A stretch of DNA of 64,000 bases from Tepidanaerobacter syntrophicus (lineage in GTDB: Bacteria; Bacillota; Thermosediminibacteria; Thermosediminibacterales; Tepidanaerobacteraceae), in contig NZ_DF976999.1 in NCBI RefSeq assembly GCF_001485475.2, positions 344,001-408,000 on the forward strand, written 5' to 3'. How positions within the stretch are numbered: position 1 is the stretch's first letter; the number at the start of each line of letters is the position of its first letter. A program made the position numbers and the translations under genes. Below the pieces are notes generated by a model. The model was not told the DNA's origin. It saw only the letters and a list, made by a program, of their open reading frames with translations, and did not search any database. Positions 1,107-41,521 of the stretch are shown one piece after another.

Positions 1107-1172
1107 TTAATCAACTATATGCAAATAAGGTCTTTAGTTAACTAAAGACCTTATTTGCATATAGTTGATTAA
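1107..1172. repeat. Perfect 66-bp palindrome between PTS EIIC and the SorC gene
   Basis: The 33 bases 1107-1139 are exactly complementary to 1140-1172, centred on GTTAAC with no spacer and no mismatch. It lies 12 bp beyond the EIIC stop codon and could fold into a very stable hairpin in either transcript. Neither side carries a clear T-run, so it is not a textbook intrinsic terminator. It may be a transcript 3'-end stabiliser, a bidirectional terminator or a mobile palindromic element. The shorter hairpin at 6571-6624 shares the AAGACCTTAT / ATAAGGTCTT arm sequence. Confidence 0.9.
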
Positions 1173-2803: not shown

Positions 2804-3307
2804 CTATATAGAATTTATATTATTATTTAACTCATCTGTTGCATTGCTAATTGCAGAATTCAATTCTTTGGCAAATTCTTCTTTATTTTCAATGCTTATT
2901 AGTTTAATCAAAAATCGTTTTTTTTGAAAAATATCTACTAATTTTTTAAGTAAATTAATTTGGGTGTTTGGATCAGTAATTGCTAGCATAAAAATAAGCT
3001 TTACATCAACTTCTTCGTCTGGATTTCCCATTACATTAAATTTTACCGGGTTCTTTAAGGTCGCAACTGCAATTCCTGGTTTTATTACATGTTCTATATC
3101 GGTATGTGGAATAGCTACGCCTACTCCATTAGTTGGCAGTCCTGTGGGGTATTCTTTTTCTCTTTGCAAAATAGCGTTTAAATAACTGCTTTTTACATAT
3201 CCTTCTGAAATAAGCTTTTTTGCCATTAATGTTATTACTTCTTCTTTTTCAGTTGCTTCAACGTTTAGCATAATAAGCGATGGATCGATTAATTTTACTT
3301 CCTGCAT
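2804..3307 (-). CDS. PTS EIIA subunit, fructose/mannitol type
   Basis: This 167-residue EIIA domain has the signature GLPTNGVGVAIPHTD, with the phosphohistidine at residue 68 of IPHTD. It takes phosphate from HPr and hands it to EIIB. It is the first gene of the transporter operon, and the sigma-54 promoter lies about 90 bp upstream. The C-terminal tail (ATDELNNNINSI) goes slightly beyond the conserved domain. A second, fused EIIA of the same class ends the LevR-like regulator encoded just upstream, so the two may compete for HPr. Confidence 0.92.
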   Translation of the reverse strand: MQEVKLIDPSLIMLNVEATEKEEVITLMAKKLISEGYVKSSYLNAILQREKEYPTGLPTNGVGVAIPHTDIEHVIKPGIAVATLKNPVKFNVMGNPDEEVDVKLIFMLAITDPNTQINLLKKLVDIFQKKRFLIKLISIENKEEFAKELNSAISNATDELNNNINSI

Positions 3308-3392: not shown

Positions 3393-3408
3393 GCAAGTTC
3401 CGTGCCAA
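3393..3408 (-). promoter_or_regulatory. Sigma-54 (-24/-12) promoter of the PTS operon
   Basis: On the minus strand the sequence reads TTGGCACGGAACTTGC. TGGCACG and TTGC are spaced by exactly four bases, which is the sigma-54 consensus (-24 GG at 3405-3406, -12 GC at 3393-3394). It lies between the stop of the LevR-like activator gene and the start of EIIA. Transcription should begin near 3381, giving a leader of roughly 70 bases. A sigma-54 activator encoded next to a sigma-54 promoter is the classical LevR arrangement. Confidence 0.93.
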
Positions 3409-3429: not shown

Positions 3430-6402
3430 TTATAGGAGAAGTTCTAGCATTATGCCTTTTACATCCGCTGGAGTCTTTGAATTTCTTAGCTTTGCGATGA
3501 AGTCGGGTTTTTTAAATAAATCATAAAGCTCTAAAACCATTTCCTTTGACTCCTCATTTAATGCCAGCATGAAAACTAAATCTACCGCATTTTTCTCCCA
3601 CCAATCTATGGGTTCCTTTAATATTGCTATGGCTATGGCAGGCTTTATGACGTTTTCAGGGTTTCCGTGGGGAATGGCGTATTTTCCTTCTATAAGGGTC
3701 GGTCCCATGATTTCCCTTTTGTATATATCCAGGAGAAATCCATTTTTAACATATCCGCCTTTTGTGAGAAGATCAGCAAGGCCATCTAAAACTTCATTCT
3801 TGCTGCTGTAATCAGGTTCCACCAAAATAAGTTCCTCATGTATAACATCTGCAAGGGGAGAATGGATTTTAACATCGGCCGGTATATTTTTTAGCGGCAA
3901 ATTGCCTCCAAGAATATTTTGTAATTTTTTCGCGGCACTGCCATCCACTACTTCCTCCAATGAAATAAACGGTGTTGAATTATCATGAGGGTTTATACTT
4001 CCAACAATTGCAGCCACATCGTATTCCGATTTTAATTTCTTGATCTTCTCCAAGACATCCTCATCTCCCGCGATGCCAACAGGGATGATTTCCGCTTTTT
4101 CCTCAATACCCGGCAGCATTTTTTCTATAAGTCTTTTTATCCTTACCGCAGTTCCCTCTCCCGTTATACACAATGTTATAATAGCTCTTTTTTCTTTTGG
4201 CTCTGAATCTTGCGGCACAAATCTCCCCAGCCCCGTCTTGTCTTTATCGATTATTTCAACAATTTCGTCCAGCTGAGCATCCGGTAGAATCGCTCTGCGC
4301 GTTGCCTCCAAAACCATAACTGTATCAACTCTGCCCACTGTTTTTGTGGGAATTCCGGTTCTTTTAGTGATTATTTCTCCAAATGTTATCAAAGATCCCA
4401 TGTCCACTAACAAAAGCACGCCTTTTCCTTCATCTGCCTTTTTCACCGTTTCAATAGTTCTTTCAAGTGCTGACTCAGGTTTTTCATCAAGGGACATCTC
4501 TATACCTACTGCGTGATTTACGCCTAAAAGCCGGTTGGCAACATCAGCCATTCCTTGGGCCACCCTGCCATGGGATAAAACTACCACGCCTACCCGTCCC
4601 CTCTTCATATCCATAGGCTTTGTAACAGTCCTGATATACATTGCTACAAATCCGATTTCGTCAGGCGGCAGTTTGTATCCTGATAATATCTCTACACGCT
4701 TTACCATTTCTTCGGCTATGCTGTATTCCAGTTTGTATTCATTCCTAATTTTCTCAAGCTGTGGATTTACAATGGGTTTTCCCATCTCAATTCTTTCAAG
4801 AGTTGCGCTTAAATGAATAGCCAAACAGTAAAACAAATGCTCATCAGCTTTGCCTAATCGTTTTTCCGCAATTTTTGTAATTTCCTCAGCCATATCTACT
4901 ACTTTTTGTCCGACTATTCCTACCAAATCCTGTTTTGCAAGGGTTTGATGGCTGGTTTCAACCTGTCTTATTAATTGCTGAAATTTTATCTCAAGCTCCC
5001 CACCAATTACCCTGTTTATTACATCCTGTTTTAAGCCTTGCTTTTCAAGTTCCTGAAATCTTTCCTCGATGTATTGGTATATTTCGCGGGGTAATTCATA
5101 TAGGTCGTCTTTAGGCCCTGCCTTAATATCGATCTTGCCCGGCACTACCAGTAAATCCCCTCTTAAAAAGCTCTCCACTTCAGGCTTTCGGCTTTCTATT
5201 TTCAGCAGTCCTCTTCGAACATGTGCCGGCAAATCAATTAAATCAACCTTTAAATAGTCTTTTTGGTCGCCTACATATGTCAAAAAACTTCTGGCGCACG
5301 CCACCTGAATATCGCTTCTAAGCTGTCCGATATTTCCCGGGCAATCGTATAGAAGTAAAGCTCTCAGTGCTTCCTGGGTCACCTTTATCCTGACATCTAT
5401 CCTGTTTGCTTCCTGGCTAAAAAAATTTCTGATAATCTCGTATCTTTCATCAAGAGGTCTTGCTGAAAGCGGCGGAAGTTCAATAATCATCGGTATTCTT
5501 CGCCTAAAAGTCAAAAGGAGAACAGATTCAATATCTTCGGTAGTTGCTGCAATTATCAGCACATTTGCACTTCGCTCGGCATCGGTTTCGCCCATCCGCC
5601 TAAATTTTCCTTTATCCATAAGGTAATAAAGAAGCTCCTGGCCTTCAGGAGGAAGACGGTGGACCTCATCCAAAAACAAAATACCTCCATCGGCTTTTTC
5701 CACTAAACCTTCTTTCGGACCTACCGCCCCGGTATATGCGCCCTTCGCATGGCCGAAAAGTTGAGATAAGAGAAGCTGGGGGTTCTCCGCATAATCTGCG
5801 CAGTTGAAAATGATAAAAGGAGCGCCGTCAGGAAGAACGCCTACCTCTACCGCATAATCATACATAGCCTCTGCCAAGTTGCTTTTCCCTACTCCGCTGG
5901 GTCCTAAAATTAATGTATGAAGCCCATGGGGCGGATAGAGAATTGCGGCCTTAGCCTGCTGAATCTGGGGTTTTAAGCTGCCTTCAGAACCCACTATGTT
6001 TTTAAAGGCTGTTGATTCTTCAGGATATCGCGATTTTTGCGTATTCTGAAGATTTTCCTCCTGACCTTGTTCCGTCATTTCTTCTTTCCTGTCAAAATCA
6101 CTCGACTCTTTTTCAATTTCTTCTCTTGTAGAAGACACAAGAAATCTTGATACTTCAAATCCTCGTTCTTGAATAATTTTGGTAAGCTGCCGGTTAGATA
6201 TATCTTTGTTTTTTGATAAGATCTCCTTTATCTCCTGCACCAGATAAGGCTTGCGCCGTTCCCTAGAATCCGGAATATTAAGTTCGCTTCGCAGCGTAGT
6301 TACCGCATCTCTTCGCATACTAAGCATATCGGCCAGTTGTTCATCAGTATAGGGGTTTTTCTTGTCTTCCGATTCAATAAGTTTTCTAATTTTATCCTCC
6401 AC
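3430..6402 (-). CDS. LevR-like sigma-54 activator with AAA+, PRD, EIIA-Man and EIIA-Mtl modules
   Basis: This large regulator (990 residues from the preferred GTG at 6402, which has AAAGGTGGTGA upstream; a TTG at 6420 is also open) should activate the adjacent PTS operon. Numbered from 6420, it has an N-terminal DNA-binding region (1-100) and an AAA+ domain with Walker A GPSGVGKS (173-180), the sigma-54 contact loop GAYTGA (227-232) and Walker B GILFLDEVH (246-254). A PRD follows with its His at 536, then an EIIA-Man-like domain with His617 in LSHGRV. The C-terminus is a mannitol-type EIIA with His918 in AIPHGN. The second PRD usual in LevR is not evident; the EIIA occupies its place. Phosphorylation of these histidines would couple activation to PTS flux. 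Confidence 0.92.
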   Translation of the reverse strand: MEDKIRKLIESEDKKNPYTDEQLADMLSMRRDAVTTLRSELNIPDSRERRKPYLVQEIKEILSKNKDISNRQLTKIIQERGFEVSRFLVSSTREEIEKESSDFDRKEEMTEQGQEENLQNTQKSRYPEESTAFKNIVGSEGSLKPQIQQAKAAILYPPHGLHTLILGPSGVGKSNLAEAMYDYAVEVGVLPDGAPFIIFNCADYAENPQLLLSQLFGHAKGAYTGAVGPKEGLVEKADGGILFLDEVHRLPPEGQELLYYLMDKGKFRRMGETDAERSANVLIIAATTEDIESVLLLTFRRRIPMIIELPPLSARPLDERYEIIRNFFSQEANRIDVRIKVTQEALRALLLYDCPGNIGQLRSDIQVACARSFLTYVGDQKDYLKVDLIDLPAHVRRGLLKIESRKPEVESFLRGDLLVVPGKIDIKAGPKDDLYELPREIYQYIEERFQELEKQGLKQDVINRVIGGELEIKFQQLIRQVETSHQTLAKQDLVGIVGQKVVDMAEEITKIAEKRLGKADEHLFYCLAIHLSATLERIEMGKPIVNPQLEKIRNEYKLEYSIAEEMVKRVEILSGYKLPPDEIGFVAMYIRTVTKPMDMKRGRVGVVVLSHGRVAQGMADVANRLLGVNHAVGIEMSLDEKPESALERTIETVKKADEGKGVLLLVDMGSLITFGEIITKRTGIPTKTVGRVDTVMVLEATRRAILPDAQLDEIVEIIDKDKTGLGRFVPQDSEPKEKRAIITLCITGEGTAVRIKRLIEKMLPGIEEKAEIIPVGIAGDEDVLEKIKKLKSEYDVAAIVGSINPHDNSTPFISLEEVVDGSAAKKLQNILGGNLPLKNIPADVKIHSPLADVIHEELILVEPDYSSKNEVLDGLADLLTKGGYVKNGFLLDIYKREIMGPTLIEGKYAIPHGNPENVIKPAIAIAILKEPIDWWEKNAVDLVFMLALNEESKEMVLELYDLFKKPDFIAKLRNSKTPADVKGIMLELLL

Positions 6403-6570
6403 AAATTCACCACCTTTCAATTTTCTTCTCTCTTAACACATTTTATGCAATTCTTGTACCAAATTATTTGAAGATTTTGTTGTTGCATATCACACCTGCT
6501 TTACCTAATTTTCCAATATCTCTATTCAACATTATATACCACAAAACCTACCATTTGAATATAGCATTAT

Positions 6571-6624
6571 AAAACAAAAGACCTTATGCAGTCGCTTTTT
6601 TCGAGCTGACTGTATAAGGTCTTA
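6571..6624 (-). terminator. Intrinsic terminator after the aldolase gene
   Basis: AAGACCTTATGCAGTC (6578-6593) pairs with GACTGTATAAGGTCTT (6608-6623) with one G-T pair. On the minus strand the stem is followed by TTTTGTTTT. It ends the aldolase transcript and isolates it from the activator gene. Confidence 0.8.
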
Positions 6625-7299: not shown

Positions 7300-11488
<4,189 letters not shown>

Positions 11489-13382: not shown

Positions 13383-13796
13383 TCAGTCTACGACTTCTAC
13401 CGTAATTCCATTTTTTTCAACAGCGCTGCGCAGCGGATTTATGACTTCACCGCTTTTTTGCGCATCAAAAGCAGATCCTAAGGATTTACCCACGATTATA
13501 TGTGTGATTTTATTTTCTTTCGAAAAGTTTGCAAGTGTTGTATATACTTCTTCGCCGGTGAGGATGGAAACTGTGCCTCCCAGCTTTTTTGCAAGCTCAA
13601 AAAGCTCCAGTAAAATCTTATGATCTTTCAAGTCTTTATTGAGGGCTTGTTTTTTATTTACATATATTACTACGAATTGGCCGTTGCACTCACGCGCCCT
13701 TTCAGCGCCTCGCTTTATCAATCTTTCACAACTTTTTTGGGGCGTTACGCAGACCATAACCCTGTGCTCTATCTCAGGGTCAAAAACGACCATCAT
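13383..13796 (-). CDS. Universal-stress-protein-like domain (KdpD-N type), free-standing
   Basis: The 137-residue product resembles the Usp-like domain found inside KdpD sensor kinases: RVMVCVTPQKSCERLIKRGA at the start, FVVIYVN, then the nucleotide-binding-type ending ITHIIVGKSLGSAFD. Here it is encoded alone, without kinase parts. Such proteins may bind a nucleotide and signal stress or potassium status; no specific role can be read. GAGAGGAG stands seven bases before the ATG. It is monocistronic, flanked by terminator-like hairpins. Confidence 0.78.
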   Translation of the reverse strand: MMVVFDPEIEHRVMVCVTPQKSCERLIKRGAERARECNGQFVVIYVNKKQALNKDLKDHKILLELFELAKKLGGTVSILTGEEVYTTLANFSKENKITHIIVGKSLGSAFDAQKSGEVINPLRSAVEKNGITVEVVD

Positions 13797-29484: not shown

Positions 29485-29511
29485 AACGCAGAGGGACTGA
29501 CCCCTTGTGTT
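29485..29511 (+). repeat. Interspersed repeat, family B
   Basis: AACGCAGAGGGACTGACCCC followed by TTGTGTT, the first unit of the dense array. It differs by one base from the consensus AACACA start. Confidence 0.92.
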
Positions 29512-29534
29512 CTGCTGGCATGGCGGCGCGTAAT

Positions 29535-29561
29535 AGCACAGAGGGACTGACCCCTTGTGTT
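29535..29561 (+). repeat. Interspersed repeat, family B
   Basis: AGCACAGAGGGACTGACCCC followed by TTGTGTT. It starts 50 bp after the preceding unit, with a GC-rich unique spacer between them. Confidence 0.92.
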
Positions 29562-29596
29562 GTCAGCAGCTCGTCATTCCCAAACAGCGTGAAAGC

Positions 29597-29637
29597 AACA
29601 CAAAAGAACACAAAAGAACCGTCCCCGCGTGTTCTCC
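29597..29637 (+). repeat. Interspersed repeat, family A (extended form)
   Basis: AACACAAAAGAACACAAAAG then AACCGTCCCCGCGTGTTCTCC. The first 11 bases are duplicated (AACACAAAAGA twice). It belongs to a 49-bp segment, 29578-29626, that is repeated exactly at 29863-29911. Confidence 0.92.
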
Positions 29638-29697
29638 TGAAGCCGCTGACCGCCTTTTTGCCGCAACGGAACATAGGGCTTCGCAGAGCACGGAGGT

Positions 29698-29724
29698 AGC
29701 ACAGAGGGACTGACCCCTTGTGTT
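29698..29724 (+). repeat. Interspersed repeat, family B
   Basis: AGCACAGAGGGACTGACCCC followed by TTGTGTT. A partial family A end (CGCGTGTTCTCC, 29736-29747) follows 11 bp later. Confidence 0.92.
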
Positions 29725-29763
29725 GCGTGTTCCTCCGCGTGTTCTCCCGTGGTGGTGCGCAAT

Positions 29764-29795
29764 AACACAAAAGAACCGTCCCCATGTGTTCTCCC
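29764..29795 (+). repeat. Interspersed repeat, family A
   Basis: AACACAAAAGAACCGTCCCC followed by ATGTGTTCTCCC. Termini AACACA and TGTGTT are inverted repeats of each other. Confidence 0.92.
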
Positions 29796-29804
29796 AAAAG
29801 GAAC

Positions 29805-29835
29805 AACACAAAAGAACCGTCCCCATGTGTTCTCC
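29805..29835 (+). repeat. Interspersed repeat, family A
   Basis: AACACAAAAGAACCGTCCCC followed by ATGTGTTCTCC, only 9 bp after the previous family A unit. Its end runs directly into the next family B unit. Confidence 0.92.
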
Positions 29836-29858
29836 CAGAGGGACTGACCCCTTGTGTT
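29832..29858 (+). repeat. Interspersed repeat, family B (fused to family A)
   Basis: CTCCCAGAGGGACTGACCCC followed by TTGTGTT. The usual AACACA start is replaced by the CTCC end of the preceding family A unit, so the two families overlap here. Confidence 0.88.
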
Positions 29859-29881
29859 ATCCTCCCAAACAGCGTGAAAGC

Positions 29882-40678: not shown

Positions 40679-41521
40679 TTATAATGTTATTTTTATGTAT
40701 TCTTCCAATGCATTTTTCCAATGAGGCAGCCTTTGAAATCCGTTTAAATCCAAACTTTTCTTTGATAATCTGGAATTTTTAGGTCTTAAGGCTTTTGTAG
40801 GATAATCTTCTGTCCTGATAGGATTTAATTTTATATTGATATCTGCCATGTCAAATATAGCAGATGCAAATTCATGCCAACTGCAATATCCTTCGTTTGT
40901 AGCATGATATATACCATACTTTTCTGTAGTTATCATATCTGAAATCAGTTTCGCAAGATCAAATGTATATGTCGGCGAGCCTATTTGATCTGAAACTACA
41001 CTTAATTCTCTTCTTTCTCTACTTAATCTCAGCATCGTTTTTACGAAGTTGTTTCCATTTTCGCCAAAAACCCATGATATTCTTACAATAAACGCTTTAT
41101 CAACATATTTTTGAACTTCAAGCTCACCTTCATATTTTGTTTTCCCATAATAGTTTATCGGATTCGGTATATCTGTAACTTCGAATGGCTTATCTCCTTT
41201 GCCGTCGAAGACGTAATCAGTGCTAATATATAGGATTTTAGCATCAATATCTTTGCAGGCTTGCGCAATATATCTTGTTCCCAAAACATTAGTCCTATAA
41301 CAGATATCACGTTCATCCTCGGCTTTGTCAACAGCTGTATAAGCCGCACAGTGGACTACTGCATCAGGTTTATGGTTTTTAATAAAGTTTTTTGTATCTG
41401 ATTCATTTGTTAAATCAAAGTCTTTTCTTGATGCGCCAAGGCAATCTATTTTAAGGCCTTTTAATCTTCTTACCACATCATAGCCAAGTTGACCGCTGCA
41501 GCCGGTTACTAAAATTTTCAA
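40679..41521 (-). CDS. rfbD: dTDP-4-dehydrorhamnose reductase
   Basis: A 280-residue short-chain reductase catalysing the last step of dTDP-L-rhamnose synthesis. The N-terminal KILVTGCSGQLGYDVVRRLK binds NADPH. The active-site YYGKTKYEGE and YISTDYVFDG are typical of RmlD. The start is TTG with AAAGGTGA upstream. It ends the rfbA-C-B-D run and is 12 bp after rfbB. Confidence 0.96.
   Translation of the reverse strand: MKILVTGCSGQLGYDVVRRLKGLKIDCLGASRKDFDLTNESDTKNFIKNHKPDAVVHCAAYTAVDKAEDERDICYRTNVLGTRYIAQACKDIDAKILYISTDYVFDGKGDKPFEVTDIPNPINYYGKTKYEGELEVQKYVDKAFIVRISWVFGENGNNFVKTMLRLSRERRELSVVSDQIGSPTYTFDLAKLISDMITTEKYGIYHATNEGYCSWHEFASAIFDMADINIKLNPIRTEDYPTKALRPKNSRLSKKSLDLNGFQRLPHWKNALEEYIKITL

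Follow-up and report, generated by a model that had tools for sequence, protein, structure and literature searches.

A perfect palindrome of 66 bp lies just past the last gene of a PTS operon in the window, as the whole 64,000-nt stretch of Tepidanaerobacter syntrophicus DNA analysed here is called. The data presented favour its reading as a hairpin at the 3' end of the EIIA-EIIB-EIIC mRNA, where it would terminate transcription and protect the message; to this we assign a probability of about 0.7. An earlier note on this DNA had offered several explanations, and the one supported makes it an RNase-resistant 3' end, or a terminator, for the PTS mRNA. That reading agrees with the position of the element, with the 3' ends of relatives and with the loopless hairpins found past genes in the genus. 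As an extreme natural 3'-end hairpin with 33 perfect pairs, the palindrome would provide a test case for the origin and persistence of perfect stems.

Results

Positions 1107-1172 equal their own reverse complement, with arms of 33 nt that are 100% complementary, a spacer of 0 nt and GTTAAC at the centre, exactly as the earlier note had described. At the 3' end of the PTS operon, the RNA form of the element is predicted to be a hairpin in which 31 pairs enclose a loop of 4 nt. Eleven inverted pairs with arms of at least 18 nt and a separation of at most 200 nt are listed in the window; the palindrome is the only one with full complementarity, the remaining ten lying at 70-80%. With a G+C content of 39% and a random pair match of p ~0.26, the chance of 33 consecutive matches is ~6e-20 at one centre and ~1e-13 across 2.4 Mb. 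The palindrome is far beyond chance, which is excluded as its source. Its arms are also the longest among the 75 perfect repeats (arms of at least 11 bp, loops of up to 14 nt) in an 860,290-base sample of the same genome, which covers 35% of the total and comprises 460,290 of the 464,290 bases of contig C5 and 400,000 of the 529,606 of contig C7. The fold of the palindrome region has a z-score of -11.45, equalled by none of 200 shuffles. At -47.3 kcal/mol, the 90 nt downstream of EIIC are the most stable of the 739 gene 3' ends in that sample, ahead of a runner-up at -41.4 and a median of -14.3 kcal/mol.

On the minus strand the gene order is sigma-54 activator, EIIA, EIIB, EIIC-GAT, palindrome and SorC/DeoR-type regulator. 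The activator gene (3430-6420; Sigma54_activat, PRD and EIIA domains) is presumably of the LevR type. Adjoining it, upstream of EIIA-EIIB-EIIC, is the minus-strand motif TGGCACGGAACTTGC (3393-3407), of the sigma-54 promoter type as judged by a pattern rather than by a curated model; this pattern has one other match in the window, at 40865-40879. The EIIA (PTS_EIIA_2, 2804-3307), EIIB (PTS_IIB, 2509-2793) and EIIC-GAT permease (1185-2435; PF03611, 343.9 bits) genes follow on the same strand, EIIC being the last of the operon. Beyond the palindrome lies the minus-strand gene of a SorC/DeoR-type transcriptional regulator with a Sugar-bind domain (PF04198), which occupies positions 1-906 and is open at the window edge. 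It is preceded on its own strand by a promoter-like TTGACA-17-TAAACT (961-989), a class represented by 23 sites against 17.7 in region shuffles and thus weak evidence taken alone. Between this promoter-like site and the regulator gene is an operator-like TGAACAAATGTTCA (923-936), and the nearest relative, G009, has a similar site, TGAACAATTGTTCA, at the matching place ahead of its SorC/DeoR-type gene; TGAACAAATGTTCA is likely to be an autoregulatory operator of the regulator gene.

The EIIC stop codon is 12 nt ahead of the palindrome, so that a stable hairpin stands shortly past the stop of the last gene, as is expected of an intrinsic terminator. The remainder of the gap holds no better terminator candidate: from the palindrome to the regulator gene, no perfect stem surpasses one of 7 bp, which is A+T-rich and without a T-run. 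A terminator scan left the whole 278-nt EIIC-regulator gap, palindrome included, without a listed site. This silence means little, because the same consensus scan also misses the minus-strand hairpin at 6571-6624, past a class II aldolase gene, which is followed by TTTTGTTTTATA (tail TTTTGTTTTATAATG, T score 4.5) and is a plain intrinsic terminator that was overlooked.

The palindrome had been described as having no T-run, which is correct outside the element: behind the full hairpin the tail is TGTCTACAAAAAACT, with a T score of 1.65, and the absence of a U-trail is what characterises I-shaped terminators and stabilising hairpins. Inside it, the description needs a qualification. The centre of the palindrome contains an 11-bp stem, GGTCTTTAGTT/AACTAAAGACC (1129-1150, minus strand), which ends in GACC and is proposed as the terminator core, and right behind it, within the 3' arm, is the T-rich tract TTATTTGCATATAGT (1114-1128, minus strand). 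Behind this inner stem (TTATTTG) the T score is 3.01, just above the 95th percentile (2.91) of the window background and below the 99th (3.82).

The 10-nt AAGACCTTAT is truly common to the palindrome and the hairpin at 6571-6624, as had been pointed out, but the kinship proposed from it does not follow, since such sharing is at chance level. Among 113 hairpins, 11 pairs share a 10-mer, against a mean of 10.4 and a maximum of 21 in 200 symmetry-preserving shuffles. The 113 comprise 117 perfect repeats with arms of at least 10 bp, less five of a GGGACGG family, plus the hairpin at 6571, which was left out of the 112 that were shuffled; the pair count retains some identical or near-identical repeats. 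AAGACC or GGTCTT occurs in 3 of the 113.

The genome-wide search for the arm that had been suggested returned a single locus. The 121-bp region, a 21-nt arm and an 18-bp core, the latter two with up to 3 mismatches allowed, are each found at one place in the genome. The 21 other genomes of the order yielded fragments of 15-28 nt, with E values of 0.07 or worse, and no counterpart; the arm had no exact match in viral contigs. BLAST of the palindrome against plasmids gave 28 records, all with less than 80% of the query covered, with E values of at least 0.04 among the 20 listed. The palindrome is therefore not a repeated element, which argues against the suggestion that it might be mobile. Rfam returned 22 matches for positions 900-1300, all under their gathering scores; microRNA precursor families account for the first 12, which reach 40 bits at best against a gathering score of 94 and reflect hairpin shape alone.

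The genome does contain a repeated palindrome family around GGGACGGTTCTTTTGTGTT, with arms of up to 30 bp and a 1-nt centre, at 29493-29860 of the window, at L126:11424-11484 and 13541-13601, and in L132, L115 and L169. GGACGGTTC sites number 23 in 860 kb of this genome and 2 in 400 kb of G002, a second genome of the genus. Two Y1-transposase genes are present in the genome; the stretch around one has two motif sites of the GGACGGTTC family and the stretch around the other has none.

EIIC was searched for in 61 genomes, 22 of which gave a match, and in genome contigs, where 80 of 517 loci were kept. The 3' ends of 14 relatives picked among the closest (59-89% identical) were read. In ten of them a perfect hairpin (arms of 9-20 bp, in one case A/T only) starts 1-81 nt past the stop codon. 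Of the remaining four, one shows a stem of 7 bp with a T-run and three lack a hairpin within 85 nt. In G009 (EIIC 89% identical) the order EIIC-hairpin-SorC is kept. Given this synteny, a whole EIIC gene and a regulator gene that is open to the window edge, a recent inversion, which had been raised as a possible origin, is not supported. The G009 hairpin is perfect, with 20-bp arms and a 5-nt loop, and its sequence is unrelated to the 66-bp palindrome. Aligned as a whole, the two gaps score 146, where the highest of 200 shuffles reaches 128, the similarity being visible at the promoter/operator end, while for the EIIC-side hairpin stretch 132 of 500 shuffles reach the alignment score. The G009 hairpin core was also considered as a homologue with a compensated pair, for which the alignment gives no support. 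In the EIIC-SorC gap the hairpin thus appears to have been kept and its sequence replaced, as judged from one fully syntenic relative.

Loopless perfect repeats are found elsewhere in the genus, and gene calls behind the following position counts are plain longest-ORF calls. Eighteen with arms of at least 11 bp occur in the samples of this genome and of G002; eight begin 4-15 nt past a predicted stop, a further one overlaps a stop codon and the other nine are located elsewhere. In the genome sample, 29 of the 33 perfect repeats with arms of at least 14 bp fall outside predicted ORFs. A spacer of zero was seen in 7 of 75 perfect repeats in this genome and in 11 of 50 in G002, against 1 in 15 if spacers were evenly distributed; zero spacers are in excess in G002 only. 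Stems were perfect in 30 of 38, 18 of 24 and 25 of 35 cases in three samples, obtained by a search that favours perfect stems.

A loopless palindrome of 32 bp (L125:3454-3485; L203:1501-1532) lies between an SBP_bac_5 solute-binding protein gene and a BPD_transp_1 permease gene, and is identical at the orthologous place in G002, where the neighbouring gene stretch has 80% identity and the remainder of the gap aligns poorly; no match was found in G001. This identity shows that loopless palindromes are, in some cases, of long standing and conserved. For a 38-bp palindrome (L125:17526-17563), neither the element nor the adjoining gene stretch matches G001 or G002. Eight G002 hairpins have an alignable neighbour on one side. 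In this genome, some perfect hairpin (arm of at least 9 bp, within 250 nt on the alignable side) is present for five and absent for three. Three further G002 hairpins fall inside alignments, and one of them, a palindrome with 15-bp arms and no loop (L141:5602-5631), corresponds at an orthologous intercistronic site to 13-bp arms with a 3-nt loop in this genome (L176:14457-14485). Both members of two adjacent outer pairs and of one inner pair are changed, and an outer pair present in G002 is unpaired in this genome. Loopless and looped versions of an orthologous hairpin with paired changes are the pattern debated by template-switch and compensatory-change models. On these comparisons, loopless palindromes can be ordinary 3' or intercistronic hairpins, some kept in sequence, some with changed pairs and some lost. 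Two copies of a 24-bp palindrome, ATATGGTAACTTAAGTTACCATAT, lie 137 bp from each other (L172:8671-8694 and 8808-8831) and look like a pair of operators.

Loss of SbcCD was considered as a possible reason for the survival of so long a palindrome. At 66 bp it is not below the size limit of SbcCD, because the lower in-vitro limit is put at palindromes of 20-36 bp in PMC4245961, which works with a 460-bp palindrome. Searches for SbcD gave no match above the NCBIfam cut-off in any of the 22 genomes of the order and a weak match in 20 of them. SbcC had no match above cut-off in the genome studied here, at a threshold passed by just 1 of 14 control genomes. On contig C9 (~457.5-458.6 kb) weak matches to SbcC and to SbcD adjoin, near 457.5 and 458.4 kb; this genome may thus have a divergent SbcC/SbcD pair rather than none.

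Discussion

The arrangement of the PTS genes, the palindrome and the regulator gene can be accommodated in the following model. The minus-strand transcript of the palindrome would fold into a hairpin of ~31 pairs. Once RNA polymerase has passed the inner stem that ends in GACC and entered TTATTTG, the hairpin could close in its wake, making a pause and release more likely, and the remaining part of the arm would lengthen the stem if it is transcribed. The complete hairpin would then shield the PTS mRNA from 3' exonucleases and keep PTS transcripts from running into the regulator gene, which has a promoter motif of its own. We infer that transcripts end at the palindrome. Counting against this reading are the missing T-run behind the full hairpin, the narrow margin of the T-rich tract over background, the 4 of 14 EIIC relatives lacking a 9-bp perfect hairpin within 85 nt, the three of eight G002 hairpins with none nearby in this genome, and the ten of 18 loopless repeats that do not begin 4-15 nt past a stop. 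In PMC13155455, a survey of perfect inverted repeats in 118,019 genomes, such repeats are more than 12-fold enriched past bacterial stop codons, where spacers of 4-5 nt, not zero, dominate. For E. coli, PMC6060812 states that repeats at this post-stop position mostly belong to intrinsic terminators.

The length and perfection of the element could stem from template switching during replication, in which one arm is copied from the other through a hairpin, with selection then keeping the pairing. Template switching makes or perfects hairpins according to PMC7202029 and PMC8794818, and possibly perfected the arms of the present palindrome. It would account for both features, and selection can also hold such palindromes, as in the 32-bp case. 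The step itself cannot be read from an ancestor, since nothing homologous to the arms was found.

The palindrome might instead form a hairpin that does not terminate, whether I-shaped or purely stabilising: polymerase would continue past it or be released by Rho/NusG, and the element would affect mRNA decay or pausing. The missing T-run outside the palindrome would suit such a hairpin, as would a Rho gene present above the NCBIfam cut-off, the loopless hairpins that also sit between seemingly co-transcribed genes (for example the solute-binding protein and permease genes) and the I-shaped M. tuberculosis element described in PMC5335608. We nevertheless consider it unlikely, as there is a T-rich tract within the arm and a promoter motif stands before the downstream gene, so that a terminator would be expected in the gap. 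A more speculative proposal, which we hold to be improbable, is that post-stop loopless palindromes form a genus-wide class, strand-symmetric and kept perfect at the DNA level, that works in RNA as a hairpin and also in DNA, as a structure or binding site; were this true, the 66-bp element would be an extreme member.

Action at the DNA level only, as a cruciform or as a protein-binding site such as an operator for the SorC-type regulator or another dimeric factor, is very unlikely. Perfect dyad symmetry is what such a site would have, and a 32-bp loopless palindrome elsewhere is shared unchanged by two species, which a binding site might also be, but operators recur and the 18-bp core is found at one place in the genome even with up to 3 mismatches. 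Moreover, ~120 nt separate the palindrome from the downstream promoter motif of the regulator, a motif with a TGAACA-TGTTCA site of its own, and the palindrome is not kept in G009. Least credible of all is a fold-back artefact of assembly or a recent inversion junction. Perfect arms without a spacer are the expected product of a fold-back, yet the two flanks are unrelated rather than mirrored, which makes an artefact unlikely, and gene order is as in G009. At 66 bp the palindrome is also shorter than an ordinary sequencing read.

Returning to the 3'-end hairpin that we favour, several known systems bear comparison with it. Mobile REP-like palindromes are likewise intergenic and perfect, but the element described here is single-copy, and the repeated family of this genome, GGGACGGTTC..., does not resemble it. 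Hairpins produced by quasipalindrome correction or template switching, as presented in PMC7202029 and PMC8794818, share the long stem and perfect Watson-Crick pairing; the difference is that here the arms are perfect without an alignable imperfect ancestral form. I-shaped (U-less) terminators and 3' stabilising hairpins have in common with the palindrome a strong hairpin and an absent U-trail. The I-shaped element of PMC5335608 is from a G+C-rich mycobacterium, unlike the present one, for which release is only putative, and the same source describes the activity of U-less terminators as disputed. From typical intrinsic terminators the palindrome differs in its mostly A+T stem of 31-33 bp, the lack of a T-run after the whole hairpin and a self-complementary loop. 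It shares with them a hairpin within tens of nucleotides of the last stop codon, a location between transcription units and, at a score just above the 95th percentile of background, a T-rich tract after the inner stem, and is most likely an extreme version of the ordinary 3'-end hairpin.
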